The notes under the pieces were generated by a model. That model worked only from the letters and a program-made list of their open reading frames with translations. It made no database searches and was not told the origin of the DNA. DNA of 64,000 nt, taken from Candidatus Dormiibacterota bacterium (GTDB lineage: Bacteria; Chloroflexota; Dormibacteria; CF-121). Location of the stretch: NCBI GenBank assembly GCA_035544955.1, contig DASZZN010000014.1:1-64000 (forward strand), written 5' to 3'. The number at the start of each line of letters is the position of its first letter. Position 1 is the stretch's first letter. A program made the position numbers and the translations under genes. Positions 29,093 to 52,906 of this stretch are shown piece after piece.

Positions 29093-30184
29093 CTAGAGGT
29101 GGCTCAGGGTGTTCGCCACCCGCTCGCGGTCTGAATCTGAGACGCCGGGGTGGACCGGGATCGAAATCATGTCCATGGCAGCCTGTTCGGCGTTGGGGCA
29201 TGGCGTGTCGCGGTAGGCGCGATAGGCGGGTTGACGATGTACCGGGACCGGGTAGTAGACGCCCGTCCCGATTCCGACCGCGGCCAGCGTCTCCCTCACG
29301 GCATCACGTGGGTGCTTGAGGGGGTCCGTCACCCGCAGGGTGTACTGGTGGTAGACATGTGTCCGGCCGCGGCCCGTCCGGGGCCTGAAAAATCCTTTTG
29401 GCGCGATTCGCTCGTCGTAGTACGAGGCGGTTTCGCGTCGACGCTGCGTGATGCCGGGTAGCCGCTGGATCTGGACCAGTCCGATGGCGGCCTGGATCTC
29501 GGTCATCCGAAAGTTGTAACCGACCGCATCATGCGTATAAGGCTCGTCCCCGTAGGCCTGGTGTCGGAGGCTGGCGCATGCCTTTGCGAGCCTCGCATCG
29601 TTCGTGGTGATCATGCCCCCCTCACCGGTCGTCAGGTTCTTCGTCGCGTAAAAGGAGTAGACGGCCGTCGCCAGCGTTCCAAGCGGTGTTGCTCCGATGG
29701 TTGCACCAACCGCCTGGCAGGCGTCCTGGATGAGGAGCAGGCCATGCTTGGCAGCCAAATCGAGCAAGGCAGGAACGTCGGCGGGATTGCCGTGGAGGTG
29801 CACCGGAATAATGGCCTTGGTCCGTGAGGTGATCGCTGCAGCAACTAACTCGGGATCGAGGTTGAGGGTGTCGTCGACATCAACGAAAATGGGGCGGGCG
29901 CCTGTCTGGGCGATTGCGTTGGCGGTCGCAATAAAGGTTAACGGACTCGTGATGACCTCGTCCCCCTGGCCGACTCCCGACGCTAGCAATGCGAGGTACA
30001 GGGCGGTGGTGCCGTTGGAGGTTGCGACTGCATAGTCGGCACCGGTCACGGCAGCGAAAGACTCCTCAAACGCCTTCACCCGCGGCCCCTGGGCGAAGGT
30101 TCCGGACCGCATCACCTCTAGGACTGCCGCCTCTTCCTCCGGGCCAAACTGTGGTCGCGCGATCGGGATCACGGTGTCACCCAT
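29093..30184 (-). CDS. DegT/DnrJ/EryC1-family sugar aminotransferase
   Basis: PLP-dependent enzyme of 363 aa that transfers an amino group onto a nucleotide-linked keto-sugar. The fold signature is VATSNGTTALYLALLASGVG with ITSPLTFIATANAI; the PLP lysine is in SFYATKNLTTGEGG; HLHGNPADV and QAVGATIGATPLG follow. Combined with the Gfo/Idh dehydrogenase (37855) and the acetyltransferase remnant just upstream, it fits the WlbA-WlbC-WlbB (WbpB/E/D) route to a 3-amino-3-deoxy uronic acid sugar. It is the last clear gene of the - strand polysaccharide operon, whose 5' end is at 39144. Confidence 0.9.
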   Translation of the reverse strand: MGDTVIPIARPQFGPEEEAAVLEVMRSGTFAQGPRVKAFEESFAAVTGADYAVATSNGTTALYLALLASGVGQGDEVITSPLTFIATANAIAQTGARPIFVDVDDTLNLDPELVAAAITSRTKAIIPVHLHGNPADVPALLDLAAKHGLLLIQDACQAVGATIGATPLGTLATAVYSFYATKNLTTGEGGMITTNDARLAKACASLRHQAYGDEPYTHDAVGYNFRMTEIQAAIGLVQIQRLPGITQRRRETASYYDERIAPKGFFRPRTGRGRTHVYHQYTLRVTDPLKHPRDAVRETLAAVGIGTGVYYPVPVHRQPAYRAYRDTPCPNAEQAAMDMISIPVHPGVSDSDRERVANTLSHL

Positions 30185-30189
30185 TGGTC

Positions 30190-30551
30190 TTAGCCTCCGT
30201 AGCCGCCGCCGATCGATGCCCCGGCAGCGACGACAACGCCTTGCGCCCGCCAGTCCGCCCGCGTCTTGAGCGCACCGTCGGGCGTGATAGCCGGGGGGCG
30301 TTTGTCATTGAGGAGGCAGCTATGTGGGCCGGTGAACACCCCGTGGGCCACCGTCGCCTCTTCGAAGATGGAGGCGCGGTTTTCGAGCTTGACGCGATTG
30401 CCGATAGTCACCCCGATGTCGATGTACACGCCCCTTCGCCAGCACACAGTCAGCGCCGATCCGAGCGCCCTCGAACCTGGGCATCGTTCCAGATTCGCGT
30501 TCCGGCGACGACGCTGGCGCCCGCCGACACGTCCGCGCGCCGATGGATCTC
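30190..30551 (-). pseudogene. Broken hexapeptide N-acetyltransferase (WlbB/WbpD-like)
   Basis: The sequence of a UDP-amino-sugar N-acetyltransferase is split over three frames. EIHRRADVSAGASVVAGTRI and WNDAQVR are fused in frame to the end of the methyltransferase; EGARIGADCVLAKG is in a second frame; VYIDIGVTIGNRVKLENRAS and FTGPHSCLLNDKRPPA are in a third. It then ends early at GASIGGGYGG just before the aminotransferase gene, without the last left-handed beta-helix turns. At least two frameshifts and a missing C-terminus indicate a dead gene unless the sequence contains errors. Confidence 0.8.
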
Positions 30552-31442
30552 CGGCGCGGGGTCGATGGCCGCTCTTTGAGCCAGCACCATGTACCCGGAG
30601 CCACCGGCGCGGAGGCCGGGTATGCCGCGATCGGCGAGGCGCTGTAGCTGCGCTTGCAGGGGATGGCCGATCGAGTCGGGCAGCTTGTGGCCCAGCAACG
30701 TGAAGGGTCCGAAGCCTTGCGTTCGCCACGAAAGCTTTGCAAGCCCGGCCTGGTAGAGCAGCGCGTCTAGCTCGCGGCGGCGGTGAAACTCTGCCCGAGC
30801 ACCGTGGGGCGGCGTGCGGCGCAGCCCAGCGCGGCGAAGGACCGCCGAAATCGTCCGGCGGGCGGGTTCGAGCCAGGCGCCGCGCATTGGATCGATCAGG
30901 TAGACGAGTCCGCGGCGGTTGTCGCATGTGACAATCGCGTGGCCACCAGGTTTGAGCACCCGCGCCACCTCCGCGAGCGCTTGGCCCGGCGAATGCAGCC
31001 ACGGCACGACCCCCAGAGCAAGTATCAGGTCGTAATGGTCGCGCTCCGCCTCGAGCGCATGAATATCGCCAGCGCGTACCTCGATGGCGTCGCCTTGTCC
31101 CGCCTCGTCCGCATTGCGACGAGCGAGCTCGACCATGGTGGCTACCGGGTCAATAGCATCCACGTGATAGCCACGACGGGCGAGGGCGATCGCCGCGTGG
31201 CCGGCGCCACATCCCGCATCGAGGATGCGAGCGTCACGCGGGAGGTTCAGGGCGTCGACCCAGGCGAGGGCTCGAGCCTGGCGCTCGCGAAAGAGCCAGG
31301 TCGCGACGTCGGCGCGGTCATAGAGTTCATCCCAAAATCGCGCAGCCGCCTCGAAGTGTCCCTCGATGACGCGGCGTTGCTCCGCTTGACGCTCCCCGAC
31401 GGGATCTCGGTGCAGGCTGGCCGGACCCATGTGGGCCGTCAT
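30450..31442 (-). CDS. SAM-dependent methyltransferase, fused to acetyltransferase start
   Basis: Class I methyltransferase of about 330 aa from ATG 31442, which overlaps the ATP-grasp stop (ATGA). The SAM-binding motif is RILDAGCGAGHAAIALARRG, then DPVATMVELARRN, LILALGVVPWLHSPGQAL and VLKPGGHAIVTCDN. After about residue 297 the protein continues into the first 30 residues of an acetyltransferase (ADVSAGASVVAGTRIWND) and stops at a frameshift. In the operon it follows the sulfolactate genes and the ATP-grasp ligase, so its substrate may be the same glycan precursor. The specificity is unknown. Confidence 0.8.
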   Translation of the reverse strand: MTAHMGPASLHRDPVGERQAEQRRVIEGHFEAAARFWDELYDRADVATWLFRERQARALAWVDALNLPRDARILDAGCGAGHAAIALARRGYHVDAIDPVATMVELARRNADEAGQGDAIEVRAGDIHALEAERDHYDLILALGVVPWLHSPGQALAEVARVLKPGGHAIVTCDNRRGLVYLIDPMRGAWLEPARRTISAVLRRAGLRRTPPHGARAEFHRRRELDALLYQAGLAKLSWRTQGFGPFTLLGHKLPDSIGHPLQAQLQRLADRGIPGLRAGGSGYMVLAQRAAIDPAPEIHRRADVSAGASVVAGTRIWNDAQVRGRSDRR

Positions 31443-32701
31443 TTGACCGCCGCCGTCGACTCGATACGAGCCGCCGGTCGCTGAGCCGACGCCTGAGCCT
31501 GGCGCCGGCGTACCCGCTGCCAGCGACCTCGGACCGTTTCGCTCACCAAATGCCACATGCTGGCGATGAACGGAACGGGATCAACCAGCGAGAAGGTCGC
31601 TGTCTCCTGCACGCCGCGAAATGACCGCAGCCAGTCCCCCAGCCGAAGTTTGTCGGTGCGGCGGTACTGGACCAGGGATAAGAGCTCTGAATCTTCTCGC
31701 AGCCAGCGGCGGCCGTCCTGCGGAACGGTAACGGGCACGGGTTGATCGGTCAAGTCGAGGTAAAGCGCTCGCACGACGTCTAGGCCGTTCCGATCGACAA
31801 ACAAACGGAATGCCCCACCCAGGCGTGGATTGACGTCCAGGATCTTGTACTGACCATCGCGGTGGTCGAACCGGTATCCTATGTCAACGATCCCACGATA
31901 GCCGACTGCCCCCAGAAACCGAAGCGTGGTCTTGATCACTGCGCGATTCTGTCGGCAGACCCCGAGTGAGCAATGGCCCATGTGCGCAGGCTGCTGACGG
32001 AGCTTCCTTCCGGTGAATGCCGCAAGGCAGCGCGAGTTCTCGTCGAAGTACCCGTTGAACATCCAGACGTCTTCGTCCCGTCCCGGAATGTATTCCTGCA
32101 GCATGACGTTGGGCGCCTCCGGAGCCTCCTCCATCCGCTCATAGGCGGCCAGGAGGCTGTCGGCGTTCCCTGCGACCGCCTTGAAGGTCACGTCGGGACG
32201 GCTGACGACCGGCTTCAGCATCACCGGGTAACGCAGCGTCGATGCCAGGGCCGCAGCCTCCTGCGCATTGGCCGGTTTTGCGATTCGCGGGGTGGGAACG
32301 TTGTGCTCGCCAGCGAGCTGGTAGAGGCCCTCCTTGGAGGCAAGCGAGGCCACCAGGTCAGCGCTCATGCGCGGGAAGCGAAACCGGGTTTGCAGCTGCT
32401 CCGCATGTTCGGCGACGAAGACGGCCCATTCATCCGTGCCGGCGAGGAGAATGGCGCCCGGTCCCAGTTGTTCGCCGGCAGCTAGCAAGCCGGCCACCAG
32501 CGTCGCCGGCTCGCCAGTCGGACGTCCTTCGTCGCCAATCGGAAACGTCCCAGCGCAGTACCGCGAGGCGTTGGGCACGAGCCGCCGCCTGTGGGCAAGG
32601 CCGTAAACTGGCACGCCGAGCTGTCCGAGGCTGCGCATGGTACCGAGGCCACCAATCCATGCAGGTGGAACCAGTACGAGCAGCGCTGGGCGGCGAGTCA
32701 T
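31439..32701 (-). CDS. ATP-grasp carboxylate-amine/thiol ligase-like protein
   Basis: 420-aa ATP-grasp enzyme that would activate a carboxylate as acyl-phosphate and join it to an amine or similar acceptor. The N-terminal Rossmann-like part is LVLVPPAWIGGLGTMRSLGQ. The ATP-grasp core is at about residues 130-330: YPVMLKPVVSR (ATP-binding Lys), NVMLQEYIPGRDEDVWMFNG, ILDVNPRLGGAF (metal-binding Asn/Asp). The gene start overlaps the ComB stop by 4 nt and its own stop overlaps the methyltransferase start, so it is tightly coupled to sulfolactate synthesis. Sulfolactate is a plausible but untested carboxylate substrate. Confidence 0.85.
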   Translation of the reverse strand: MTRRPALLVLVPPAWIGGLGTMRSLGQLGVPVYGLAHRRRLVPNASRYCAGTFPIGDEGRPTGEPATLVAGLLAAGEQLGPGAILLAGTDEWAVFVAEHAEQLQTRFRFPRMSADLVASLASKEGLYQLAGEHNVPTPRIAKPANAQEAAALASTLRYPVMLKPVVSRPDVTFKAVAGNADSLLAAYERMEEAPEAPNVMLQEYIPGRDEDVWMFNGYFDENSRCLAAFTGRKLRQQPAHMGHCSLGVCRQNRAVIKTTLRFLGAVGYRGIVDIGYRFDHRDGQYKILDVNPRLGGAFRLFVDRNGLDVVRALYLDLTDQPVPVTVPQDGRRWLREDSELLSLVQYRRTDKLRLGDWLRSFRGVQETATFSLVDPVPFIASMWHLVSETVRGRWQRVRRRQAQASAQRPAARIESTAAVK

Positions 32702-33435
32702 GAGTTCCAGCCTCCTCGCGCCGCCGTATGAGCAGCGACCGTCGTCGCTTCCTGGCCCTCCATGACGACCACAAGGTCGAGGTCGTCAATATGGGACAGC
32801 ACGTAACCGATGTCGTCCCCTTGGCCGGTGCTGCGCAGGTACTCTGCGCTTGGACCGTCGTTGATCAACGCAATATCCGCCGATGCCCACCGATCAATTT
32901 CCTGTCGTGTGGTGGGATTCTCCGGTTCAAAACCAAGCTGCGTCAGACGGAGGGCAAACCAAGCGCAGGCCAGCTGGTCTTCCGCCCTCGGCTCGCCCCG
33001 GGTCCCGGCTCCGATGACGGCAATGTGCTCGTGGCGCTGTGCAACGTAGTCCGCCGTGGCCGACAAGTTGCGGAAGCACGCGACGTAAACCGCGCGGGAA
33101 CCCCGGGCGTTAGCTAGCAACTTGGTCCCTGCCGATGAGAGGAGCACCAGCGGGCGTCGGTCGGATCGGCTGGCCAGCCGATAGGGCGAGTTATTGATTT
33201 CGAAGGTCGCCGGTGTATCCCCGGCCACTTCGCCGGCCAGCAGGGGATTGGTTAGCCCGGCTGCCACCTCGGCAGCTTCCTCAACTGAGGCGACGGGAAA
33301 GACCCGACGTCCATGGGCCAGCGCGGTGACGATCGTCGTCGTCGCTCGAAAGGCGTCGACGGCGACCACGGCGTGCGTATTCAGGTAGCGGGCAGTACGC
33401 TCGGGGAGCGAATCGATAACCACCGTACCCTTCAT
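32698..33435 (-). CDS. comB: 2-phosphosulfolactate phosphatase (ComB family)
   Basis: Removes phosphate from 2-phospho-3-sulfolactate to give 3-sulfolactate, the second step of coenzyme M or sulfolactate synthesis. The 245-aa protein carries the family signature AVVAVDAFRATTTIVTALAH, LLAGEVAGDTPATFEINNSP and LVLLSSAGTKLL, GAGTRGEPRAEDQLACAW. Its GTG/ATG start overlaps the ComA stop (4 nt), and its stop overlaps the ATP-grasp start, so all three are translated as a unit. Later CoM steps (ComC, ComD/E) are not seen in the window, which points to sulfolactate as the end product. Confidence 0.87.
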   Translation of the reverse strand: MKGTVVIDSLPERTARYLNTHAVVAVDAFRATTTIVTALAHGRRVFPVASVEEAAEVAAGLTNPLLAGEVAGDTPATFEINNSPYRLASRSDRRPLVLLSSAGTKLLANARGSRAVYVACFRNLSATADYVAQRHEHIAVIGAGTRGEPRAEDQLACAWFALRLTQLGFEPENPTTRQEIDRWASADIALINDGPSAEYLRSTGQGDDIGYVLSHIDDLDLVVVMEGQEATTVAAHTAARGGWNS

Positions 33436-34259
33436 CGGCGCCCCTCGGTTCCGGGGCGCGGCCTTGGCGCGAGTTCCCGATAAAAGGAGTCGGCGTGCAG
33501 GCCGCGACGGTAGATTTCGACGCGAAGAATCTCTTCCATGCGGACGTTGCTCAGGTTCACGTCGTTACCGAAATGCGTCAGCAGGTCGAACTGACTCCGC
33601 TTGGTCGGGGCTTCGAAGACAGTAGTCGCGATGCCCCAGGCCGAGACGAAGGTCTCGGCGAAATCGGTATTCAGCCGTCCGGTCTCGTCGAACAGCCCGA
33701 TGCCCTGGGCGCTCTCCCGCCCTTCGACCACGATCTGTTTCGCGCCGGCCGTCAGCCAGCGATGGCCTCGTTCGACCAACCGCTCGGCGACCGTCCTGGT
33801 GAACGCCCCACCTTGCTTTTCGCCCAGCTCGACCTGCACCTCCAGGCCGAATTGCCGGGCGAGGCGGATGACATCTTCAGGCGCCATCGGCGCCGTAAAG
33901 CCTTCGCCCGCCTCGATCCGTTCGATGCCAAGGCTGGCGCAGAGCGCGAAGTACTCCTCGAGGCAGCCCCGTTCCTTGGCGATCTCGTAAGGTCCGCCTC
34001 CGGTGACCAGTGGCACATTCAGACGCTTGGCGGCCCCGATCTTGGCCCGCGTAGCAGACTCATCGGCGAGCAACCAGGTGGCCATCGACAGCTTTAACCG
34101 ACTCAGCAGACGGCCGCTCTGTTCGAGATGACTAATGACGGTAGCCGGGTCATAGCCGGGGTCGAAGGCGCTCGTCCGCGCCGGCAGTTCCGGCACGCCA
34201 AGGGCGCCGAGGAACGCAGCGGTTTGCGCGCCGGCCGCCATCGGCTCAGGCTGCGCCAT
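33432..34259 (-). CDS. comA: Phosphosulfolactate synthase (ComA family)
   Basis: Adds sulfite to phosphoenolpyruvate to form phosphosulfolactate. About 275 aa from ATG 34259 (TTG 34307 would add 16 residues). Family stretches match well: VTGGGPYEIAKERGCLEEY, IVVEGRESAQGIGLFDETG, TVFEAPTKRSQFDLLTHFG, VNLSNVRMEEILRVEIYRRG, then LHADSF. The enzyme is a TIM barrel that needs magnesium. It overlaps the GT2 glycosyltransferase gene upstream and ComB downstream, placing sulfolactate synthesis inside a polysaccharide operon rather than a methanogenesis or sporulation setting. Confidence 0.9.
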   Translation of the reverse strand: MAQPEPMAAGAQTAAFLGALGVPELPARTSAFDPGYDPATVISHLEQSGRLLSRLKLSMATWLLADESATRAKIGAAKRLNVPLVTGGGPYEIAKERGCLEEYFALCASLGIERIEAGEGFTAPMAPEDVIRLARQFGLEVQVELGEKQGGAFTRTVAERLVERGHRWLTAGAKQIVVEGRESAQGIGLFDETGRLNTDFAETFVSAWGIATTVFEAPTKRSQFDLLTHFGNDVNLSNVRMEEILRVEIYRRGLHADSFYRELAPRPRPGTEGRR

Positions 34260-35217
34260 GTTCCACCCGTGTGCCAGATTGAGCGGTTTCCAGGACCACG
34301 CCGCCAACCTTGTAGTAGCGGTGAAGCACGCGCGCCATCAAGAGTTGCAGCTGGCGAACCCTCAGCAGATCCGCAGCCCACAGGCTGGCGATCAGCGTTC
34401 GACCGAGGGCGTCCATTGCCGTCGGCGCAGCTCGCCAGGCCGACGCCAACCGGCGGGTCACCCCCTGGTCGATCGGGCTGCCGATAAAGGTCTCGATTGG
34501 AAGGGAGTGTTTGCGTGCGAGGTGCACGATTGACTTGCCGCCGCTGAAGGCTTGCCGCCGCGCGGCACCATAGCTGACGTGATGCAGGTGATAGGAAAGG
34601 GCCCGCGGCTCGAAGACCACGGGGACACCGATGGCGGCGATGCGGATTCCGAAGTCTGTATCCTCGTTCCCGTACTGGCGAAAGCCCTCGTCGAATCCAC
34701 GGACCCGCGCCCAGAGATCGCGGGTCAGCGAGATATTGGCGCTCCAGATCTCGGCAGACATGCGGTGCTGCCGGTCGAGCGGTGCGACAGAGCGCTCGAG
34801 CCAGTGCTGATAGATGAGGGATGCTCCGCGACGGTCGTAGCCTTTGGCGAGAGGATAAAAGCCTTGGACAAGGGCCGGTCCCTGTTGCTCCTGCACCTCG
34901 AGATGGACCGCGACCAGGTCAGGCGACGCGATCTGATCGTCGTCGAGGAAGATCAGTACCTCGTGGTGGGCCTCGCGGGCTGCGGAATTGGAGGCAGCGG
35001 CGCTGCCCGCGTTTCGCTGCGTGATCCATCGGAGTGGGTAAGTGGGCCTGAAGTGCTCGAGCGCTTCCACGGTGTCGTCGGTTGAGCCGTCGATGGCGAC
35101 GATGACTTCAAAGGCACCGCTTTCGACGGACTGCGCCTGAAGGCTGTTGAGCGTCTGCATCAGGAAGGAGCGCCGGTTGTACGTGGGGATGAGCACCGAT
35201 GCTCGTAGGTCATTCAT
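34246..35217 (-). CDS. GT2-family glycosyltransferase
   Basis: Inverting GT-A-fold glycosyltransferase of about 323 aa (ATG 35217, or GTG 35226). ASVLIPTYNRRSF at the start, EVIVAIDGSTDDT, IFLDDDQIASPDL with the metal-binding DxD, and GFDEGFRQYGNEDTDFGIR, typical of GT2 enzymes that add sugars to a lipid-linked chain. It is a close paralogue of the + arm GT2 (46392). The 3' end overlaps ComA by 14 bp and the 5' end overlaps the flippase stop. The donor and acceptor sugars are unknown. Confidence 0.9.
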   Translation of the reverse strand: MNDLRASVLIPTYNRRSFLMQTLNSLQAQSVESGAFEVIVAIDGSTDDTVEALEHFRPTYPLRWITQRNAGSAAASNSAAREAHHEVLIFLDDDQIASPDLVAVHLEVQEQQGPALVQGFYPLAKGYDRRGASLIYQHWLERSVAPLDRQHRMSAEIWSANISLTRDLWARVRGFDEGFRQYGNEDTDFGIRIAAIGVPVVFEPRALSYHLHHVSYGAARRQAFSGGKSIVHLARKHSLPIETFIGSPIDQGVTRRLASAWRAAPTAMDALGRTLIASLWAADLLRVRQLQLLMARVLHRYYKVGGVVLETAQSGTRVEHGAA

Positions 35218-36583
35218 TGCTTGCACCCTGTCCCATGAAGGCGTTGAGCCGCGTCATACGGCCGGCGCTGACTTGCCGGATGGTGTAGGCACCGATGACC
35301 ACGAGCTGAACCCCTGCGCCTGCAGAAAAGGCCACGGCAGCTCCGAGCAGGCCGGCCCGCGGAACCAGCAACAAGCCGATGACGACGGTGGCGACGGTGC
35401 CCGCGCCGGTCGCTCCGGCATCGATGGCCGGCTTGCCAAGCCCTCGCCAACTTCCCGCTAGAACCAGGTAGACGCCGTAGCAGGCCATCCCGATCGCCAG
35501 CACCGCAAGCGGTGTGCTGACCTCGCTGTATCGGCTGCCGAAGATGAAGTCCGTGAGCGGCTTGCCGAAAATGACGAAGACCATCAGGAGCGGGGCGGTT
35601 ACGATCGTCGCAAAAACCAGGACCCGCCCCAGGTAGCCACCGAGGGACAACTGTGGCATGCGTGCAATCCGACTCATCACCGCACCCGATACGGCCGAAG
35701 GCGCGAGATAGACGGCGTTCGCGAGGCTTTTCGCCGCCGCGTAGTTACCGGCCGCTTGCGAATCAAGCAGCCGCTGGACGAGGATCAGGTCGGCTCCGAA
35801 CCAGATGGCAAAAAAGACCGTCTGGAGCACTAGCGGCTGGATATAGCGAGCGACCGCCATCATCCGCTGCCATTCCACCGCGTCGCGAATGAAACGGAGG
35901 GCCAGTGGCGCGACCGGCTGGACAATGGCTAGGGCGGCAACGCTCGACAACCCGTAGATCGCAAGGTAGAGGGCGGCATTTCTCCGGCCGAACGCAGCCA
36001 GTACCAGAATTGCGATGAGCTGAGCAACGTTAGCCAAGAAGTAGAAAATCGTCATCGCGGCGAATCGCTCCAGCCCGCGCTGCGCTTCTTTGTAGGTTTG
36101 CAGCACCGCGAGCCCGACCAGGTTTGCGATGACGGCGAGCAGCATCGGCGGACTCAGCCGGGCCACGGCGGCGATCGGGACCATCAACACGGTGCTGAGC
36201 GCCAGCAGCAGGGTGATGACCGCCAGCCAATTGCTGAAGTGCAGTTCTTGTTCGCGGGGATTTCCCTGGTAGCGAGCGACGAAGGTGGCCAAGCCTGCTG
36301 GTGCGCTGGAGATGAGAATCGAGGCGAAGCCAACGATGGCGAGGCCGTACGCCAGCAGGCCGTACTCGGCAGGCACGAGCAGGCGTGCCGCGGCGACCGA
36401 GAAGAGAAAGCCGATCGCGCGCGCCGCCGTACCGCCAAAGAAAAGGATGGCCGACGACCGAAGCAGTCCTCTCTTGGGTGCGACCCGCTGGACGAGCCTG
36501 CTGATCCGCGAGAACGAAGAAAGGGCGCCCGGGCCGCTCTGCGTAGCCCCCACCGGCGTCAGCCCGACGGGAGGTAAGGCCAC
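35210..36583 (-). CDS. Wzx-type polysaccharide flippase
   Basis: Membrane protein of the MATE/PST superfamily that moves lipid-linked sugar units across the membrane. 12-14 hydrophobic helices over about 457 aa from GTG 36583; the frame opens further to 36721 but that part overlaps the hydrolase gene and is not family sequence. SSAILFFGGTAARAIGFLFS, then VAAARLLVPAEYGLLAYGLA at the N-terminus closely match the Wzx half of the fused protein at 43609, showing paralogy. It lies between a hydrolase and a GT2 gene, all overlapping. Confidence 0.85.
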   Translation of the reverse strand: MALPPVGLTPVGATQSGPGALSSFSRISRLVQRVAPKRGLLRSSAILFFGGTAARAIGFLFSVAAARLLVPAEYGLLAYGLAIVGFASILISSAPAGLATFVARYQGNPREQELHFSNWLAVITLLLALSTVLMVPIAAVARLSPPMLLAVIANLVGLAVLQTYKEAQRGLERFAAMTIFYFLANVAQLIAILVLAAFGRRNAALYLAIYGLSSVAALAIVQPVAPLALRFIRDAVEWQRMMAVARYIQPLVLQTVFFAIWFGADLILVQRLLDSQAAGNYAAAKSLANAVYLAPSAVSGAVMSRIARMPQLSLGGYLGRVLVFATIVTAPLLMVFVIFGKPLTDFIFGSRYSEVSTPLAVLAIGMACYGVYLVLAGSWRGLGKPAIDAGATGAGTVATVVIGLLLVPRAGLLGAAVAFSAGAGVQLVVIGAYTIRQVSAGRMTRLNAFMGQGASNE

Positions 36584-37827
36584 GATCCCCGGTTCCAACG
36601 GTCCTTTCCTCCTGGCCGAATAGTTGCGCCCGCTGCGGACGCATGCAGCACTGTCAGAGAACGGGTGCGCTCCTGCTTCACAAATAGTACAGTCGATCCA
36701 GGGCCAGAGACAATGGGCCATTTGGCCCTGCCGCTGGCCTGGCCGCTAAAGCTGGAGAGGACTTCGCCCGCGGGTGTCAGCCGGTCGTGCGTGGCCAGAA
36801 AGAGGTTCTGGTCGGAGATGGAATGCATCAGCACAGCTAGCGCCCCGGACCCTATCGCTTGGTCGAGGAAATCGCGCACCGCGGTCGCTTCAATTCGCTG
36901 GTCATGGAGATGGTCGCCCTTTAACGAGGCACCCGCCTCACCCAGGATGAAGGGCTTATCCAGCCTACGCCTCAGCTCGCGCAGCGCCGGGTGGTCCTCA
37001 TAGATATGCAGGTCGTAAAAGTCGAGGATGTCGTCGAAGCGGCTCAGGTCGGGGGCTGGCTGAACGTAGAGGTTGCCGTCGGAAACCGTGAGCCAGGAGT
37101 GCGGCGCAGCTGCCTTAGCGGCGGAGTAGAGGTCGTGCAGAAAGCCGTGCACGATGCTGTCCGGGAAGTTTGGACTGATGGGATCGCCTGCTGGGGGAGG
37201 AGGATGGCCGGCATCGGGTCCGAGGCTGCCATAAGCCTCGTTGAAGAGGTCCCAGGCGACGATCGCCGGCTCCGAGCCAAAGCGCGCCATGAACGCTTGT
37301 GTAGCCCTGAGGTAGCCGGCGCGCATTTCGGCGTGCTGACCGTCAAGGGCCTCGAAATGGAAGTTGCCCGGGCTCGATGTCTCCTCCTGGTCGTAGAGCA
37401 CGGCAACCATTTGGAGGTCGCGCGCGGCAAATAGCGAGACCATCTGCTGGAAATTAGCGAGGCTTCCTTCGTGAAAGCCGATGAAGCCCGTTCCGTCGTT
37501 CCACTCCATGAGTTGATCAAGTCCGATAAACAGGCGGATAACCCGACCGAGATGGCGCTGTTGGACGAAGTCGAGGTCGGCGACGATTTGTGGGTAGGCG
37601 ACGTTCCAGTTGTCTTTGACACCAGTCCCGGAGCGGAGCCAGGTTGTCCCAATCCACCGCCCGTCAAGGCCCAGGGGGATGCCATAGTTGAGCCCCTTGA
37701 CTGACGCGAAGTGGGGCCCGGTCGAGCTCGGCGCGGGCTGACCCGATGGCGAACCGAAGGTGATGAGGCCAACCGCAACCAATGCCAGGCTAAGGGCGGA
37801 GATTGCGGCACGGAATCGATAGCCCAC
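36559..37827 (-). CDS. Secreted cellulase-fold (GH5/GH-A clan) glycoside hydrolase
   Basis: 422 aa with an N-terminal signal or anchor (residues 5-27) and a TIM-barrel glycosidase. VKGLNYGIPLGLDGRWIGTT, VIRLFIGLDQLMEWN, the acid/base Glu in WDLFNEAYG and the nucleophile Glu in ILGEAGASLKG are typical of clan GH-A enzymes such as mannanases and cellulases. It is encoded within the polysaccharide operon, so it probably trims or releases the polymer outside the cell. The stop overlaps the flippase start by about 25 bp. Confidence 0.8.
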   Translation of the reverse strand: MGYRFRAAISALSLALVAVGLITFGSPSGQPAPSSTGPHFASVKGLNYGIPLGLDGRWIGTTWLRSGTGVKDNWNVAYPQIVADLDFVQQRHLGRVIRLFIGLDQLMEWNDGTGFIGFHEGSLANFQQMVSLFAARDLQMVAVLYDQEETSSPGNFHFEALDGQHAEMRAGYLRATQAFMARFGSEPAIVAWDLFNEAYGSLGPDAGHPPPPAGDPISPNFPDSIVHGFLHDLYSAAKAAAPHSWLTVSDGNLYVQPAPDLSRFDDILDFYDLHIYEDHPALRELRRRLDKPFILGEAGASLKGDHLHDQRIEATAVRDFLDQAIGSGALAVLMHSISDQNLFLATHDRLTPAGEVLSSFSGQASGRAKWPIVSGPGSTVLFVKQERTRSLTVLHASAAGATIRPGGKDRWNRGSWPYLPSG

Positions 37828-37854: not shown

Positions 37855-39144
37855 CTAAAGCTCGGGGAAGGCGACTGCTGGATCGTCCGGGGCGGTCACG
37901 GACGAAACCGGGTGGACGGGTACGTCGCGGCTGTTAGCCAAAACGACCGGGTGTCCGTTGCCGTTCGACGGGATGGCGTGACCATTACCGTTCGATTGTA
38001 CCGCGTGACCGTTGCCCGTCGGGGCGACGGGATGGTTCTCGGCCTGTTGCACGGGTTGCCTGCTGGCGACTCCGACTATCGTGGGAATGCGGACTGGCAC
38101 CCGAAGCCCGCCATTCATGAGTGATTGGTTGGCTGCTTCCAGGACCGCCACCACCGCGAGACCCTGGTAACCGTCGCTCAGTGGGGTGGCACCCGTGCGG
38201 ATAGACTCCACAAAATGCTCGCACTCCGTCCGCAGCGGCTCTTGCCACGCGACGTACGGAATGGTGATCTGCCCGTTTCGATAAGAGAGCTGAAATTCGC
38301 CGAAGCTGTCAGTGGGTGGCGGCTCCACGCCCTTGTCGTAAATGCGGATCTTTTCGGTCGTGGATACGTCGTTGTACACAGCCATCTTCCGGTCACCAAC
38401 CACCGTAATCCGGCGAACTTTGGCGGGATCAAGCCAACTGACGTGGAGCTGCGCGCTGAGCCCGTTGTCGAATTGGATCTCGACGTACGCCACATCATGG
38501 ACCGTTGAACGTACGCAGGAGCTTCCGCGCGCGCTCACGGCGACCGGGGTCGTCCCGAGCACGTACAGCAGGATTGAGACGTCGTGGGGGGCGAGGTCCC
38601 AGATGACGTTGACGTGGCGCTGGAAAAGGCCGAGGCTCAGCCGGGCGGCGTCGACGTAGAAGATGCGGCCAAGCTCACCCGACCTGACGAGGCGTCGAAG
38701 CTCGACCACCGCGGGGTTGTACAGAAACGTATGGCCTGACATCAGCGTCCTGTCCATGACCCGGGCCACCTCAATCAGGGAAGCCGCCTCGCCCACACTT
38801 AACGCTAGCGGCTTTTCTACCAGCGCATGCTTGCCGGCGCGGAGGGCTTCCCGGGTGATGCTGAAATGGGTTTCGATGGGCGTCGCGACCACGACCGCCT
38901 CGATGTCCGACGCGAGGAGCTCGCGGTAATCCGCGTAGACGGGTACCCCTGGATAGCGCTGCCGCACATATTGAAGTCGGTCCGGGCTGGTATCGGCGAC
39001 CGCCGCCAGCTGCGCCTCGGGCATCTCGGAAAAATTTCGGATGAGCTGGGGGCCCCAATAGCCGCATCCGATCACGCCGACCCGCACTGGATCCTGGTGG
39101 GCGTGCTTGACCCCATTCCCTGGCTGGTGCCCGTTTTCCTTCAC
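37855..39144 (-). CDS. Gfo/Idh/MocA-family dehydrogenase (WlbA/WbpB-like)
   Basis: NAD(P)-dependent oxidoreductase of about 429 aa from GTG 39144 (GGAG upstream). VRVGVIGCGYWGPQLIRNFS binds the nucleotide; EAVVVATPIETHFS and the catalytic ALVEKPLALS follow. The family includes UDP-GlcNAcA 3-dehydrogenases of 2,3-diamino uronic acid synthesis, which fits the aminotransferase and acetyltransferase remnant downstream. The last 80 residues are unusual: three copies of an Asn-Gly-His unit (NGHAVQS, NGNGHAIPS, NGNGHPVV) after the catalytic fold, followed by a Pro-rich end. It is the first gene of the - operon. Confidence 0.87.
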   Translation of the reverse strand: MKENGHQPGNGVKHAHQDPVRVGVIGCGYWGPQLIRNFSEMPEAQLAAVADTSPDRLQYVRQRYPGVPVYADYRELLASDIEAVVVATPIETHFSITREALRAGKHALVEKPLALSVGEAASLIEVARVMDRTLMSGHTFLYNPAVVELRRLVRSGELGRIFYVDAARLSLGLFQRHVNVIWDLAPHDVSILLYVLGTTPVAVSARGSSCVRSTVHDVAYVEIQFDNGLSAQLHVSWLDPAKVRRITVVGDRKMAVYNDVSTTEKIRIYDKGVEPPPTDSFGEFQLSYRNGQITIPYVAWQEPLRTECEHFVESIRTGATPLSDGYQGLAVVAVLEAANQSLMNGGLRVPVRIPTIVGVASRQPVQQAENHPVAPTGNGHAVQSNGNGHAIPSNGNGHPVVLANSRDVPVHPVSSVTAPDDPAVAFPEL

Positions 39145-39286
39145 TAAAGGTGCTCCGCTTTTTTCCCTTCCGTGATTTCCCAGTCTAAAGCCTCTTTCGG
39201 TCGCTGGCAAGATCGTATACTCGTGTCCCCCACATAGGAAACGTTACAGTATGTGCGGCAAGAGTTCGGCAAAGTGATGCGGAGGA

Positions 39287-39314: not shown

Positions 39315-39367
39315 GACTGTACCCTCTGTGCAGCCCCTCATTGGTCGCTGCGGCTAGGGCGAATTAC

Positions 39368-40066
39368 ATGGTCGGGGTCGTCCGCCGTCTGAGATCGTTC
39401 TGGCCCTGGGCGTATGCAACAACGGCTGAGACGACCCACCCTGCCGTCCTGCCAGTGCACCGCTGGAAACGAGCCATGGATCTCGGGATCGGCGTCCTGG
39501 TGCTGGTCGCGCTTGCTCCACTCATGGCTGCTATCGCCGCCCTCATCGTCCTGGACGGTGGCGGACCAGTCCTGTTTGGCCAGGAGCGCATCGGTCGCTA
39601 CGGCAAACCATTCACGATGTGGAAGTTTCGCTCCATGTACCCTGGTTCCGACGACCGCGAGCACCGCAGCGCGGCCGAAGCCTGGTTCGCCGGAAGTCCC
39701 GCACCCCTTGGGTACAAGGCCTGGAAGGACCGCCGCGTCACTCGGGTCGGTCGGGTGCTTCGGCGCACGAGTCTTGACGAACTGCCACAGTTCGTTAATG
39801 TGGTGCGCGGCGAGATGAGCCTGGTTGGCCCGCGGCCGGCGATCCCGTATGAGCTTGCGCTCTACGAGAATTCCTACTTCGAGCGCCAGGCGGTGCGGCC
39901 GGGGATCACCGGGATGTGGCAGGTGCTCGGGCGCGATCGTCTGCCCGCAACCGCTATGATGGCCCTCGACCGGCGGTACGTTCGCGAATGCTCGCCCGCG
40001 CTCGACTTCAAAATCCTTGCTTATACGATTCCGTCGCTACTTGGACGCCGCCCGAGGAACCTTTAG
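39368..40066 (+). CDS. Initiating sugar transferase (WcaJ/bacterial sugar transferase)
   Basis: Polyprenyl-phosphate phosphoglycosyltransferase of about 232 aa that starts the repeat unit by moving a sugar-phosphate from a UDP-sugar onto undecaprenyl phosphate. HRWKRAMDLGIGVLVLVALA leads the membrane-dipping helix; MWKFRSMYPGSDD, RVLRRTSLDELPQFVNVV (catalytic Asp-Glu), LVGPRPAIPYE and VRPGITGMWQVLGR are canonical. This short monotopic form lacks the large N-terminal membrane domain of WbaP. ATG 39368 is chosen over TTG 39341. It is the first gene of the + arm. Confidence 0.93.
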   Translation: MVGVVRRLRSFWPWAYATTAETTHPAVLPVHRWKRAMDLGIGVLVLVALAPLMAAIAALIVLDGGGPVLFGQERIGRYGKPFTMWKFRSMYPGSDDREHRSAAEAWFAGSPAPLGYKAWKDRRVTRVGRVLRRTSLDELPQFVNVVRGEMSLVGPRPAIPYELALYENSYFERQAVRPGITGMWQVLGRDRLPATAMMALDRRYVRECSPALDFKILAYTIPSLLGRRPRNL

Positions 40067-40067
40067 G

Positions 40068-41477
40068 ATGGAGCGGGGGAGTCAGTTGAAAACGGTTTCG
40101 GGCGCTCTCCGACACCGGCTGCCGATCGTCCTGGCGGTCGTTGGCCTCTGCCTGCTTGCCGGCGTCGCCGCCGTCATCTTGTTGCCTAGGACCTACAAAG
40201 CCGAGTCACTCCTTCTGGTCGACGCTCAGTGGGAGGGCGCGTCCGATCCTGCCTCCGCCCTGAGCGCGAGCGATACGCTTACCCGGCTGTACATCGCCGA
40301 GGCGACCAGTGGGCCGCTGCTGCAGCAGGTGGTTGATCAGGCTAAGCTCGGCGTGTCTCCCGATCGCCTGGCAAAGCAGATAAATGCCAGCACGGTCCGG
40401 GGGACCACGCTACTGGCGATCGATGCCACCGACAACTCGCCCGATCGGGCGGCGCGTATCGCCAATGCGGTCGCACAGAGCCTTGTGGATCGAAACCGCG
40501 CCGATGTGCTGGCTCGATTCGAGCCACGGCGGACCTACCTCGAGTCCGAACTTGCCAGGCTGGACGCCGCGATCCAGACCGTACAAAGCGAGAAGCCCGG
40601 CACCAATGCGGCTGCAATCGGCGATCACGCGGCCCGGCTGAGCCTGCTTCAGGGCCAGTACAGCGGCGTGTACACGCAGCTGCAGAACATCCTGTTAGCG
40701 CAATCGCACGGCATCTCCACCCTGACGGTCAATGCGCTCGCAGGACCTCCAACTGGACCGATTAGCCCGGACCCTCTCCGCTACGTCCTGGCTGCGCTGG
40801 CGATCGGGCTGGCCCTCGGAGTTTTGGCCGCCTTGCTGGTTGAACGGTTCGACGATCGCCTCTACAGCGCCGAAAGCCTGGCCGAAGCCACCGGTTCGCC
40901 GCTGGTCCTCGCCGGGTTTCGCGGCGTCGCCGCGAACGGGAGGGCGGATGCGGCGTCTCGCAACGCCTATGCCTTGGCGCTGGCAAGCGTACGCGCCAAG
41001 TACCCCGAGGCGAAGATGTTGATGGTGGTGGCCGCCGCCCCGCGTGATCGCGCCGATGGTGTGGCGACCGGGATTGGTAAGGCCGCCGCCTATGGCGGAG
41101 AGCGGGTCGTGTTGGTGCGCGCCGACCCGGTGAACGGCATCCCCCACCCGGTAAGCCCGAACGGTTCGGGTCTGACGATAGTCCCGCTGCCCTCCACGCA
41201 CGATCCGCGGCAGGCGTTGAGCGCACTCGCGAACGGCAAAACGCCCTACGACTTCACCGTCCTGTCCCTGCCTTCGCCGCAGACAGATCCGGTCGCCATG
41301 TCGCTCGCGGGAACAGCCAGGCTCGCCATCCTGGTGGCAACTGCGAAGCAGACCCGCTTCGGGGAGGCGCGCGATGCCGCGGAGGCGCTTCGCCAGGCCG
41401 GGTTCGCCGTCGCTGGTAGCGTGTTGGTCGCTCGCGGGGTATCGGGATCACACGAGGGCTCGACCGCAAAGTCGTGA
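40068..41477 (+). CDS. Wzz-like polysaccharide co-polymerase with inactive BY-kinase-like domain
   Basis: 470 aa from ATG 40068, one base after the sugar transferase stop. A first membrane helix (about 18-38) and a second (about 240-265) flank an extracytoplasmic Wzz region (YKAESLLLVDAQWEGASD, then helices). The C-terminal cytoplasmic part resembles the P-loop ATPase of BY-kinases (MLMVVAAAPRDRADGVATGI) but has no Walker A GKT/S and no tyrosine-rich tail, so it is probably not a kinase. It controls chain length with the Wzy half of the protein at 43609. Its stop overlaps the next start (GTGA). Confidence 0.82.
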   Translation: MERGSQLKTVSGALRHRLPIVLAVVGLCLLAGVAAVILLPRTYKAESLLLVDAQWEGASDPASALSASDTLTRLYIAEATSGPLLQQVVDQAKLGVSPDRLAKQINASTVRGTTLLAIDATDNSPDRAARIANAVAQSLVDRNRADVLARFEPRRTYLESELARLDAAIQTVQSEKPGTNAAAIGDHAARLSLLQGQYSGVYTQLQNILLAQSHGISTLTVNALAGPPTGPISPDPLRYVLAALAIGLALGVLAALLVERFDDRLYSAESLAEATGSPLVLAGFRGVAANGRADAASRNAYALALASVRAKYPEAKMLMVVAAAPRDRADGVATGIGKAAAYGGERVVLVRADPVNGIPHPVSPNGSGLTIVPLPSTHDPRQALSALANGKTPYDFTVLSLPSPQTDPVAMSLAGTARLAILVATAKQTRFGEARDAAEALRQAGFAVAGSVLVARGVSGSHEGSTAKS

Positions 41478-43612
41478 CGCGCGGCCCATTGGTCGCATTC
41501 GCTTGGTCGCCATTTCAAGCGCGCACCGAGGGCCTCGCGAAGGAGCTGGGTGGCGAGGCGCGGTTCGTCGCCGGGCGCCGCCTACGCCGTGCCCGGTGGC
41601 AACTGCCGCTCCGATACGTGCGAGACGGCATTGACGCCTGGAGGCAGCTGCGCCGGCTCGATCCCCGGGTCGTCATCGTCATCACACCCCCGGTGTTTGC
41701 TCCACTGGTGGCGTGGCTCTGGTGTCGCGTCCACCGCCGCCCGCTGGTCATCGACTGCCACACGCTCGCGTTGCATTCTCGGAAGTGGGCCTGGGCGCTT
41801 CCGCTCCATCGTTTCCTCATGCGTCGATCGCGGGCCGTCCTCGTTCACACGCAGGAGGCCCTCGCGGAAGTGCGGGGTTGGGGCGTCCACGTCATGGTCC
41901 TCCCGGACGAGCTGCCCGATCCAGCCCTGGCTCGAGAGCCCAAGCACGGAGGCGCTCCGCGCGTGCTGATCGCCGGGAGCCTGGACTGGGACGAGCCGGT
42001 CGCCGCTGTAGTCGAGGCGGCTCGGCAAGTGCCGGCGATGGAGTTACGCCTTACCGGTGACCCAGCGCGAGTGTCAGCGGGCGTACGCGCCGCAGCGCCA
42101 CCGAATGCCGTCTTTACCGGGTGGCTCGACTATCCCACCTTCCTCGGAGAGGTACGAGCGGCTGACGTGGTCGCGGCATTCACCGGGCTGCCGGGTGTTA
42201 TGAACCGGGCCGCGTTCGAAGCGGTCGCACTGGGTAAGCCTCTCGTGCTCACCGACCTTCCCGAGATGCGCGAACGCTTCGGTCAAGCCGCCCTCTTCAC
42301 GACCAACGATCCAACCGACATGGCCCGGACCGTTAGCCGCGCCTACGAGGAGCGCGAGGCGCTCGCCGCGCGTAGCCTGCGCCTCCAGACGGATCTGCGT
42401 GCGGCCCGACTCGAGGGACTGACACGACTTCGGACGCTGCTGACCGAGCCGCCTCGACGCGCCCGACGTATGTTGCTGGTCAGCCAACACGCGTACCCTG
42501 ACGCGCCGCTGCTGCGACGAAATGTTGAGCACCTCGCAGCGCAGGGCATGCAGATCGACCTTATCTGCATGGAGCCAGCTAACCCGCTTCCACCAAGCTC
42601 ATTCCTTCCCGGGATGCGCATATTCGCGCTACCCGTGCAGCATCGGCGGGAGCATCGGTTCAATTACGTGGTCGAGTTCGCTGCCTTTTTTCTCCTTTCC
42701 TTTCCGATCGTGACCGCGCTCGGACTACGGCGTCGCTACGATGCCATCCAGGTCGACAACCTCCCGGACTTCCTTCCCTTTGTGGCGATCGTTCCGAGGC
42801 TGCGGGGCGCGCGTGTCGTCTTCTACATGTACGACATGTTCCCCGAGCTCGCCATGACGCGCCTCGGCCTGGATTCCGGCCACCCGATTATCAAGCTTGC
42901 ACGCCAGATCGAACGATGGGCGCTGCGCTGGGTGGATCATGCGGTCGTTGTGACCGATCTATTCCGGCGCACTCTCGTCAGCCGGGGCGTCGATGCCGCA
43001 AAGATCTCGGTCGTGTACAACACTCAGCCCCTGACGGTGGCCATGCGCAAGCCATCAAACGGTAGTCCTCGCCTCGTGACCCACGCCAGCCTGGTCGAGC
43101 GTTACGGTGTCCAGGTCGCAATTCGCGCTCTTCCGATTCTCCGCGACGCGTGGCCGGATCTCACCTACGATGTGCTGGGGCGCGGCGAATACCAGCCAGC
43201 CCTGGAGCGCCTGGCCACTGAGCTCCGCGTCCGCGATGCGGTCACCTTCGGCGGCTTCCTTCCGTGGCCGGAGGCGATGGAACGAATCAGCTCCGCCACC
43301 CTTGGCATTGTGCCGGTTATCGCTGACGGCTTTGGGGAGTTCATCCTTCCGATGAAGTTGCTCGAGTACGTCGGCATGGGCATCCCGGTAGTTTGCGCGC
43401 GGCTACCCGGGATCGAAGAACACTTCGACCCCGAGTCAGTCGCCTTTTTCACGCCAGGCGACTGCGAGGGTCTGGCGCGTCAGGTCGACCGCCTCCTCAA
43501 TGACCCAGTGGCAGCCGAGCGGCAGGCAGCCCGTGCCAGCCAGGCGCTTGAGAGTCTTCGCTGGGAAACGGTGGCGCCTCGTTACCTGGCGGCGCTGCAC
43601 CCGATGGCATGA
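41474..43612 (+). CDS. Tandem two-domain GT4 glycosyltransferase
   Basis: 712-aa fusion of two GT-B fold glycosyltransferases. Domain 1 (about 5-325) ends with FTGLPGVMNRAAFEAVALGK and LVLTDLPEMRERFG. Domain 2 (about 330-710) contains YDAIQVDNLPDFLPF, HASLVERYGVQVAIRAL, GRGEYQPALERLATEL and GFGEFILPMKLLEYVGMGIP, the usual GT4 donor site with Glu residues. Each half could add one sugar, so the protein may catalyse two steps. It starts at GTG 41474 inside the previous stop and its stop overlaps the Wzy-Wzx start. Confidence 0.88.
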   Translation: MTRGPLVAFAWSPFQARTEGLAKELGGEARFVAGRRLRRARWQLPLRYVRDGIDAWRQLRRLDPRVVIVITPPVFAPLVAWLWCRVHRRPLVIDCHTLALHSRKWAWALPLHRFLMRRSRAVLVHTQEALAEVRGWGVHVMVLPDELPDPALAREPKHGGAPRVLIAGSLDWDEPVAAVVEAARQVPAMELRLTGDPARVSAGVRAAAPPNAVFTGWLDYPTFLGEVRAADVVAAFTGLPGVMNRAAFEAVALGKPLVLTDLPEMRERFGQAALFTTNDPTDMARTVSRAYEEREALAARSLRLQTDLRAARLEGLTRLRTLLTEPPRRARRMLLVSQHAYPDAPLLRRNVEHLAAQGMQIDLICMEPANPLPPSSFLPGMRIFALPVQHRREHRFNYVVEFAAFFLLSFPIVTALGLRRRYDAIQVDNLPDFLPFVAIVPRLRGARVVFYMYDMFPELAMTRLGLDSGHPIIKLARQIERWALRWVDHAVVVTDLFRRTLVSRGVDAAKISVVYNTQPLTVAMRKPSNGSPRLVTHASLVERYGVQVAIRALPILRDAWPDLTYDVLGRGEYQPALERLATELRVRDAVTFGGFLPWPEAMERISSATLGIVPVIADGFGEFILPMKLLEYVGMGIPVVCARLPGIEEHFDPESVAFFTPGDCEGLARQVDRLLNDPVAAERQAARASQALESLRWETVAPRYLAALHPMA

Positions 43613-50953: not shown

Positions 50954-51003
50954 TGGCCACCCGGCGGCGCGCAATTGCCGCGCAAGGAAAAGGACGGCGA
51001 CTC

Positions 51004-51459
51004 GTGTCCTCGCGCTTCCGCTCTGCCTGGGATAGCCCGGGATTCCTCCTGTGGCATGCCTCCCTACGCTGGCAGCGACAGATGGCTGCTGCCCTGCGGC
51101 CGATGGGGTTGACGCACGTCCAGTTCGTGCTGCTGGCTAGCACCTGGTGGCTCATCGCGCACGGCGGCCAACCGAGCCAGCGTGAGCTGGCCGATCACGC
51201 CGGGACCGACGTGATGATGACCTCTCAAGTCGTACGGGCCTTGCAAGCCAAGGGCCTGATCACGCGGGAGCCCGATGCGCGTGACCCGCGTGCCCTTCGC
51301 CTTGGCCTGACAAAGCAAGGGGAGAAAGCCGCTCAACTGGCCCTTGCCGCTGTGGAGTCCGCGGACGAAGACTATTTCCAGGCCGTCGAGGATAGACCGC
51401 GGTTGATCGGTGCGCTCCGGGCAATGGCAGGCCATCCACGAAGCGAGAGGACCGCTTAA
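51004..51459 (+). CDS. MarR-family transcriptional regulator
   Basis: 151 aa from GTG 51004 (AAGGA upstream; GTG 50953 is a longer option). The winged helix is clear: LTHVQFVLLASTWWLIAHGG, QPSQRELADHAGTDVMMTSQ, VVRALQAKGLITREPDARDP and RALRLGLTKQGEKAAQLAL. It probably represses its own operon through the palindrome at 50472-50485. The effector is unknown; the neighbouring SRPBCC protein and amidase may belong to the regulated response. Confidence 0.9.
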   Translation: MSSRFRSAWDSPGFLLWHASLRWQRQMAAALRPMGLTHVQFVLLASTWWLIAHGGQPSQRELADHAGTDVMMTSQVVRALQAKGLITREPDARDPRALRLGLTKQGEKAAQLALAAVESADEDYFQAVEDRPRLIGALRAMAGHPRSERTA

Positions 51460-51496
51460 CGACACTCCGACCGCTCGATATTGTTATGTGATCGAC

Positions 51497-52906
51497 ATGA
51501 CAGACCTCGAACTCGCCTTCACGCCGGCCGTCGACCTGGCGCGCATGATCGCCGCGCGCACCGTCTCGCCGGTCGAAGTGGTTTCCAATGCCCTGTCCCG
51601 CATCGAGGACGTCAACCCGAAACTGAACTGCTTCTGCTTCGTCTGGCATGACGACGCCCAGGAAGCCGCGCAGACCGCCGCCGAAGCAGTGGCTCGTGGC
51701 GAGACATTAGGCCCGCTGCATGGCGTGCCCATGGCGCTGAAAGACACGACGCCGACCGCCGGTCACCGGACAACGCTCGGCTCCTACACGCATGAGAACT
51801 GGATCCCGGATCGCGACGCCTACATCGTTGGGGCGCTGCGGCGAGCCGGCGCGATCATCGTCGGCAAGACCACCACTCCGGAGTTCGCGCACACACTGGT
51901 GACCGACAGCCCGCTCTGGGGCATCACGAGAAACCCCTGGAACCTCGAGCGTACGCCGGGTGGCTCATCTGGAGGGAGCGCCGCGGCGGTCGCGGCCGGG
52001 TGCGTACCGCTGGCCGAAGGCACCGACATGGGAGGGTCGGTGCGGATCCCGGCCGCCTGGTGCGGAATCGTCGGGCTGAAGCCCGGACTGGGTCGCATTC
52101 CGATGGACACACTTCCTGGCCTCTTCGACCTGATGTCACACCATGGTCCCCTGGCTCACACGGTCGACGACGTGCGCGTGTTCTTGCGAGCCACCCAGGG
52201 ACCGGATGATGCCGACATCCTTTCCGTTCCCTGCCCGCTCGACCTCGAGTCGCCGGTCCCGGCGTCGGTCAACGGTCTCCGCCTCGCGTTGTCGATCGAC
52301 CTAGGACTCTGGGCCGTCGACCCGGCCATTGAGGCCTCGGTGCGCGCGGCGGCCATCGCCTTGCGTGCGGCGGGGGCGGTTGTCGACGAAGTCGAGGTCA
52401 GTGTGACGCGGAAGGACGAAGACGTCTGGGTAGATCTGTGGAGCGTGTTTATGGCCAGCTACTACGGCCACCTGGTTGAGCAATACGCACCGAAGATGGA
52501 TCCGGATGTCCTGAGGCTGATCGAGCGTGGCAACGCGCTGAGCGCAGTGCAGCTCAAACGGCTCGAGTTGGCGCGGACCGATCTCTGGCGTCGGCTCGCA
52601 CCTGTCTTCGCTTCCTACGACGCCCTGCTTTGCCCCACTATGGCCACTGGGCCCAGCCCTGCCGGCAAGGCTGACCGACCAAAGGATCCTCCGGCGGATG
52701 GTCGCTATCACGCCGCCGACATGACGGGTGTCTTCAACCTGGTCGCGCCGTGCCCGGCGCTATCGGTCCCCTGCGGCTGGGACGCTGAAGGCCTGCCGAT
52801 CGGGTTGCAGGTCGTCGGCCGGCGGTGGCGCGAGGATACGGTGCTTCGGATCGGGCGGGCAGTCGAGGTGGCCATACCCGACTCCTTTCGCCGGCCGCTG
52901 ATCTAG
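51497..52906 (+). CDS. Amidase signature family enzyme
   Basis: 469-aa hydrolase with the Ser-Ser-Lys triad: Lys in GVPMALKDTTPTAG, the cis-Ser in TPGGSSGGSAAAVAAG and nucleophile Ser in GTDMGGSVRIPAAWCG. The C-terminal GVFNLVAPCPALSVPCGW is typical. It cleaves an amide but the substrate cannot be assigned (it is not GatA in context). ATG 51497 is used; the frame opens earlier inside the MarR gene. It follows MarR by 37 bp and could be co-transcribed. Confidence 0.9.
   Translation: MTDLELAFTPAVDLARMIAARTVSPVEVVSNALSRIEDVNPKLNCFCFVWHDDAQEAAQTAAEAVARGETLGPLHGVPMALKDTTPTAGHRTTLGSYTHENWIPDRDAYIVGALRRAGAIIVGKTTTPEFAHTLVTDSPLWGITRNPWNLERTPGGSSGGSAAAVAAGCVPLAEGTDMGGSVRIPAAWCGIVGLKPGLGRIPMDTLPGLFDLMSHHGPLAHTVDDVRVFLRATQGPDDADILSVPCPLDLESPVPASVNGLRLALSIDLGLWAVDPAIEASVRAAAIALRAAGAVVDEVEVSVTRKDEDVWVDLWSVFMASYYGHLVEQYAPKMDPDVLRLIERGNALSAVQLKRLELARTDLWRRLAPVFASYDALLCPTMATGPSPAGKADRPKDPPADGRYHAADMTGVFNLVAPCPALSVPCGWDAEGLPIGLQVVGRRWREDTVLRIGRAVEVAIPDSFRRPLI

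Follow-up and report, generated by a model that had tools for sequence, protein, structure and literature searches.

A putative ComA-ComB-ATP-grasp cassette for sulfolactate decoration of surface polysaccharides in a soil Chloroflexota genome and about ten bacterial phyla

The stretch analyzed here, called the window, comprises 64,000 nucleotides (nt) of contig DASZZN010000014.1 from a soil Chloroflexota metagenome-assembled genome (MAG; 3.67 Mb, 52 contigs, 95% complete). Positions are window coordinates, and genes lie on the minus strand unless marked otherwise. Three adjoining genes code for a ComA-like (2R)-phospho-3-sulfolactate synthase of a divergent, glycan-linked clade (33432..34259), a ComB-like 2-phosphosulfolactate phosphatase (32698..33435) and an ATP-grasp ligase of a ComA-linked clade (31439..32701). 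Judged from sequence comparison, this cassette probably decorates surface polysaccharides with sulfolactate, by way of ComA, ComB and an amide ligation carried out by the ATP-grasp enzyme. It is a new combination of known enzyme families in a conserved cassette, with a coherent, putative product.

On the strength of family membership and conserved residues, ComA would combine phosphoenolpyruvate and sulfite to phosphosulfolactate, and ComB would remove the phosphate to yield (R)-3-sulfolactate. The ATP-grasp enzyme, by its fold, motif, linkage and fusions, would convert the carboxylate of sulfolactate into an acyl phosphate, which would be joined in the cytosol to the amine of a lipid-linked or nucleotide-linked sugar, the acceptor to which the fusions point. 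The exported glycan would thus carry a sulfolactoyl amide, i.e., a negatively charged sulfonate. In some lineages a LarA-type racemase may alter the configuration at C2, and a methyltransferase probably methylates a hydroxyl of either the acid or the sugar.

ComA, ComB and the ATP-grasp ligase

The first-pass annotation of this DNA had described comA and comB genes overlapping by 4 nt, flanked by an overlapping glycosyltransferase of family 2 (GT2) upstream and an overlapping ATP-grasp ligase downstream. This layout was confirmed. The ComA-ComB, ComB-ligase and ligase-methyltransferase junctions are all 4-nt ATGA overlaps, the pattern expected for a single transcript. The GT2-ComA overlap measures 14 nt, provided that ComA starts at the ATG at 34259.

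The window ComA is a member of PF02679 (147.6 bits; Pfam cut-off 25.2), and its closest sequences in the PDB are the solved ComAs 9cm1, 24fo and 1qwg. The window ComB is a member of PF04029 (128.7 bits; cut-off 26.4) and is closest to the solved ComBs 2yyv and 1vr0; its conserved residues are D27, R30, E69, N82-S83-P84 and E152-D153. The ComA residues that are invariant over 32 other ComAs, the Methanocaldococcus jannaschii enzyme among them (K43, E79, E103, E133, E168, E205, E237 and R240 in its numbering), are kept in all 64 members compared of the clade to which the window protein belongs. The equivalent of K137 is likewise present in 100% of these 64 sequences.

The NCBIfam matches of the window ligase are to carbamoyl phosphate synthase-like ATP-grasp proteins. 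Its AlphaFold2 model (predicted local distance difference test score 94.3) has the ATP-grasp fold and matches biotin carboxylase, PurK and L-amino-acid ligases in the PDB (E about 1e-14, TM-score 0.5-0.6). The metal/ATP motif D289-x-N291-x-R293, together with K123, K163, E203 and D279, is invariant in 53 ligase sequences, and the retention of this motif and of the lysines is what would be expected of an active ATP-grasp enzyme. Two further arginines, R299, six residues past the catalytic-motif arginine R293, and R331, are present in 53 of 53 ComA-linked ligases versus none of 11 ComA-free relatives; they are proposed to contact the sulfonate. More distant homologues of the ligase, which score about 250 bits and have no ComA beside them, lie mostly within polysaccharide loci, so the ligase family as such belongs to glycan synthesis.

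For enzymes of this class the most probable bond is an amide. Two Gemmatimonadota loci (L078 and L118) encode the ligase as a fusion with a polysaccharide deacetylase, which points to an amine freed by deacetylation as the acceptor, and two other loci (L119 and L106) encode it as a fusion with the methyltransferase. At one locus the cassette ligase is present as a tandem duplicate (L088:11532-14116; 322 and 330 bits).

Distribution and genomic neighborhood

A scan of genome contigs with the single window ComA sequence gave no match. A scan that covered one genome for each species, based on an alignment of nine ComAs of the phylum, found 67 related loci in about ten bacterial phyla; by their titles these are Acidobacteriota, Chloroflexota, Pseudomonadota, Actinomycetota, Nitrospirota, Ignavibacteriota, Myxococcota, Thermodesulfobacteriota, Gemmatimonadota and Zixibacteria. 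Three nominally archaeal contigs are also among the matches (L084, L099 and L102), and their position inside bacterial groups of the tree suggests binning errors. In the ComA tree the 67 loci form a single clade with support 100/100, whose internal branch measures 4.72 changes per column.

ComB clusters are present in 65 of the 67 loci, with ComB next to ComA in nearly all, and the same ligase cluster in 56. Among the untruncated loci, i.e., those with 4 kb present on both sides of ComA, a profile search found the ligase in 44 of 45, compared with none of 32 loci of other ComAs. The recurrence of the ComA-ComB-ATP-grasp set in dozens of unrelated genomes shows that the arrangement is not due to chance. 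Of 400 genomes of the phylum, seven have ligases that score above 360 bits; six of these seven also have the ComA clade (about 0.14 expected), which is itself found in only eight of the 400. Distance matrices of ComA, ComB and the ligase correlate at 0.73-0.80 (0.66-0.78 after removal of near relatives), values never reached in 2000 permutations.

The closest cassette relative lies on contig VBIC01000114.1, also from a soil Chloroflexota MAG (G016), which has matches to nine of the operon genes in the same order as in the window. No ComA was seen in the 14 other members of the genus that were examined, which makes the distribution of the cassette patchy. Viral contigs yielded no relative, and the ComAs obtained from a scan of plasmids were all distant, with about 28-31% identity to the window protein.

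A linkage to glycan genes in relatives, which follows from the first-pass reading, proved to be strong and specific. Glycan genes number 2.00 per 10 kb around ComAs of the clade versus 0.05 around control ComAs, as counted with profiles that were built from the test loci and so favor them; at least two glycan genes are present at 46 of 67 clade loci versus none of 32 control loci. The independent Pfam comparison of the nearest neighbors is the fairer control: the leading families are glycosyltransferases, GNAT/FemAB and DegT around the test ComAs, and MmgE/PrpD and IclR around the controls. An insensitive first comparison with the single window proteins gave 0.54 matches per 10 kb in the test set versus 0.00-0.08 in controls. 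Several of the loci belong to XrtA-type exopolysaccharide clusters, in which TIGR03019 and TIGR03006 exceed their cut-offs.

Accessory genes are less constant. Sulfolactate differs from malate in having a sulfonate where malate has its distal carboxylate, and a malate-type racemase therefore fits the cassette. A Lar_N protein (LarA-type 2-hydroxyacid racemase) is encoded near 15 of the 67 loci, with the malate racemases LarAH6 and LarAH5 as its best NCBIfam matches (178 bits; equivalog cut-off 500). No racemase was found in the window genome, which marks it as accessory and not core. A LarA homologue (Lar_N plus LarA_C) also adjoins a ComA of a different, conventional and high-scoring type in four genomes that belong to one family (L126-L129; L126:10771-12099). 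The presence of the same racemase family beside a different ComA clade suggests that the racemase tracks the ComA product and not the glycan, and this homologue may be a nickel-dependent sulfolactate racemase that lies outside the glycan cassette. About half of the 67 loci have homologues of the methyltransferase, whose distances are less tightly correlated than those of ComA, ComB and the ligase. Thirteen loci, L067, L069, L074, L086, L090, L091 and L110 among them, have a second ATP-grasp family that resembles cyanophycin synthetase and N-acetylglutaminylglutamine synthetase. In L069 this second gene sits between ComA and ComB; in L067 a B12-binding radical SAM protein (L067:10765-12165) occupies that place.

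Proposed function and alternatives

The first-pass annotation had proposed that sulfolactate is attached by the ATP-grasp enzyme, for example as an amide to the amino sugar made by the dehydrogenase and the aminotransferase of the operon. The proposed use of sulfolactate by the ATP-grasp enzyme in surface-glycan synthesis is strengthened by the loci beyond the window. The choice of acceptor is not supported as a rule, as DegT is near only about 13 of the 67 loci. The operon's own amino sugar is a possible acceptor, though not a general one. In the closest relative, the intact acyltransferase encoded between the methyltransferase and DegT could acylate the DegT-made amine.

Several observations weigh against the decoration of glycans with sulfolactate. 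The assignment of the two enzymes holds for the Pfam families given above and fails at the NCBIfam equivalog level, where ComA reaches 148.1 of 280 bits (TIGR03849, archaeal ComA) and ComB 78.6 of 175 bits (TIGR00298); both are thus divergent family members and not equivalogs. No source of sulfite was found in the 95% complete window genome, where ATP sulfurylase, 3'-phosphoadenylylsulfate (PAPS) reductase and sulfite reductase, as well as TauD and cysteine dioxygenase, were looked for; the organism may lack sulfate assimilation. Glycan genes are not in view at every locus, with two or more at only the 46 counted above. One genome of the phylum (G381) has a close ligase but no ComA. The titles of all 67 loci point to MAGs, and none names a cultured strain.

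The ligase might instead join sulfolactate in the cytosol to an amino acid or a small amine; the product (a sulfolactoyl amino acid or a diamide) would then be secreted as a metabolite, or attached to the glycan by GNAT/FemAB-like proteins or by the second ATP-grasp enzyme. L-amino-acid ligases (3vot and 4wd3) are among the nearest solved folds, the cyanophycin synthetase-like ATP-grasp is present in its 13 loci, and GNAT/FemAB-like proteins occur in many. The folds of biotin carboxylase and PurK are, however, equally close, and many complete cassettes, that of the window included, have neither the second ligase nor GNATs; it is ComA, ComB and the first ligase that stay together throughout. 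This route is considered unlikely.

Less likely still is that the ComA clade makes a different acid, by addition of something other than sulfite to phosphoenolpyruvate, and that the cassette attaches this acid to the glycan. The score of ComA under the equivalog cut-off, the long internal branch of the clade and the failure to find any of the five sulfite-linked families in the window genome are in its favor. On the other hand, the residues invariant over the 32 other ComAs are fully kept in the clade, ComB is retained beside ComA, and the relatives of the racemase prefer malate, a close analogue of sulfolactate.

ComA and ComB catalyze the first two steps of coenzyme M synthesis in methanogens. 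A cassette that supplies coenzyme M or another free sulfonate (an osmolyte or a sulfonolipid head group), with an incidental location among glycan genes, would agree with these steps and with the nominally archaeal bins, but is very improbable given that the 32 other ComAs lack both the ligase and the glycan context, which are specific features of the clade, that the archaeal rows fall within bacterial groups as binning errors would, and that the window genome has a single ComA and no match to ComC (Ldh_2, PF02615). Coenzyme M supply, for which the first-pass annotation had likewise seen no later genes, was rejected for the window cassette on the latter two grounds.

For the attachment of sulfolactate to glycans as a sulfolactoyl amide, the chances are about even that it constitutes a third role of ComA and ComB, in addition to those in coenzyme M and free sulfolactate. 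This reading would include a new ligase family specific for sulfolactate and a nickel-dependent racemase of sulfolactate in some lineages, in a cassette patchily distributed over about ten phyla, mostly from soils, sediments and groundwater. Among the open-licence papers searched, none was found to connect sulfolactate or phosphosulfolactate synthase with a polysaccharide. If the proposal is true, many uncultured bacteria of these habitats have surface glycans that bear a permanent charge on a C-S bonded group, which standard sulfate-ester analysis would miss. The new role would account for ComA genes in bacteria without methane or alkene metabolism. The cassette would also offer a ready enzyme set for the production of sulfonated sugars, and such glycans would be a source of organosulfonate in soils, with a bearing on sulfonate-degrading communities.

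Surrounding gene cluster and comparison with known systems

On the minus strand the genes follow in the order Gfo/Idh dehydrogenase, unknown protein, Wzx-like flippase, GT2, ComA, ComB, ATP-grasp ligase, S-adenosylmethionine (SAM)-dependent methyltransferase, remains of a hexapeptide acyltransferase and DegT aminotransferase. The Gfo/Idh/MocA sugar dehydrogenase (37855..39210) matches PF01408; its nearest NCBIfam entry is the UDP-GlcNAc 3-dehydrogenase NF040723 (198 bits, below cut-off). The next protein (36559..37827, 422 amino acids) has no significant Pfam match and is of unknown family; it has a homologue in L039 (437 bits). The Wzx-like flippase (35210..36721; PF01943 and PF13440) probably has its true start internally. 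The GT2 glycosyltransferase (34246..35226) matches PF00535 with 85 bits and is EpsD-like (166 bits).

Two features beyond the ligase were absent from the first-pass annotation, namely the methyltransferase that overlaps the ligase and the disrupted acyltransferase between methyltransferase and DegT. The methyltransferase (30560..31442; PF08241, 79 bits) has an approximate 3' limit, as its frame enters the disrupted acyltransferase. The latter (30190..30560) was compared with L039 at the DNA level and has two small indels (at about 30473 and 30433) and lacks part of its 3' end. In the relative L059/L039 (L059:12593-14158, Hexapep) the acyltransferase is intact and fused in frame to the methyltransferase. 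The disruption in the window is either gene decay or a sequencing or assembly error. The DegT/DnrJ/EryC1 sugar aminotransferase (29093..30184) scores 404 bits with PF01041 and matches perosamine synthetase, ArnB and WbpE in the PDB.

The divergent half of the cluster, on the plus strand, contains an initiating bacterial sugar transferase (39341..40066; PF02397, 197.5 bits), a double GT4 glycosyltransferase (41474..43612; PF13439 and PF13692, two stretches each) and a single reading frame with an O-antigen ligase/polymerase-like region followed by a flippase (43609..46395; PF04932 and PF13440). The families by which a Wzx/Wzy-dependent locus is recognized (PF02397, PF01943, PF04932, PF00535 and the GT4 families) thus stand together in 34-47 kb. 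Farther along, ARAGORN called a permuted transfer-messenger RNA with an atypical tag (50973-51581, minus strand); no Rfam match for such an RNA was present there, and the call is probably false.

The cassette resembles ComA and ComB of coenzyme M biosynthesis, as in M. jannaschii, in both enzyme families, the expected order of reactions and the invariant residues. It differs from them as a separate, fully supported clade below the equivalog level, with no ComC member, a fixed ATP-grasp partner and a glycan context. The other ComAs of the phylum and those of bacterial plasmids (for example in Xanthobacter autotrophicus Py2 and Mycolicibacterium; annotated as phosphosulfolactate synthase) are alike in ComA fold and catalytic residues, but the plasmid proteins share only the low identity to the window ComA reported above, and the neighbors of the same-phylum ComAs are MmgE/PrpD, IclR or LarA, with no ATP-grasp partner and no glycan genes.

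The nickel-dependent malate racemases LarAH5 and LarAH6 (PMC11770544, PMC7583248) are the closest NCBIfam matches of the cassette racemase, which remains far below their equivalog cut-off; sulfolactate is not mentioned in either paper. Sulfolactate catabolism (SuyAB, SlcC/ComC) involves the same metabolite but is degradative, and a passage of PMC6018796 attributes its racemization, by citation, to two dehydrogenases. In the Campylobacter jejuni capsule, the TupA-like ATP-grasp domain of Cj1438 activates a uronic acid of the glycan, to which it adds an amine (PMC11800379). As described, this is the same kind of step, i.e., ATP-grasp amide formation in capsular polysaccharide synthesis. In Cj1438 the acid is the uronic acid of the glycan itself, whereas the window cassette is proposed to use a small molecule as the acid, with the amine on the sugar.

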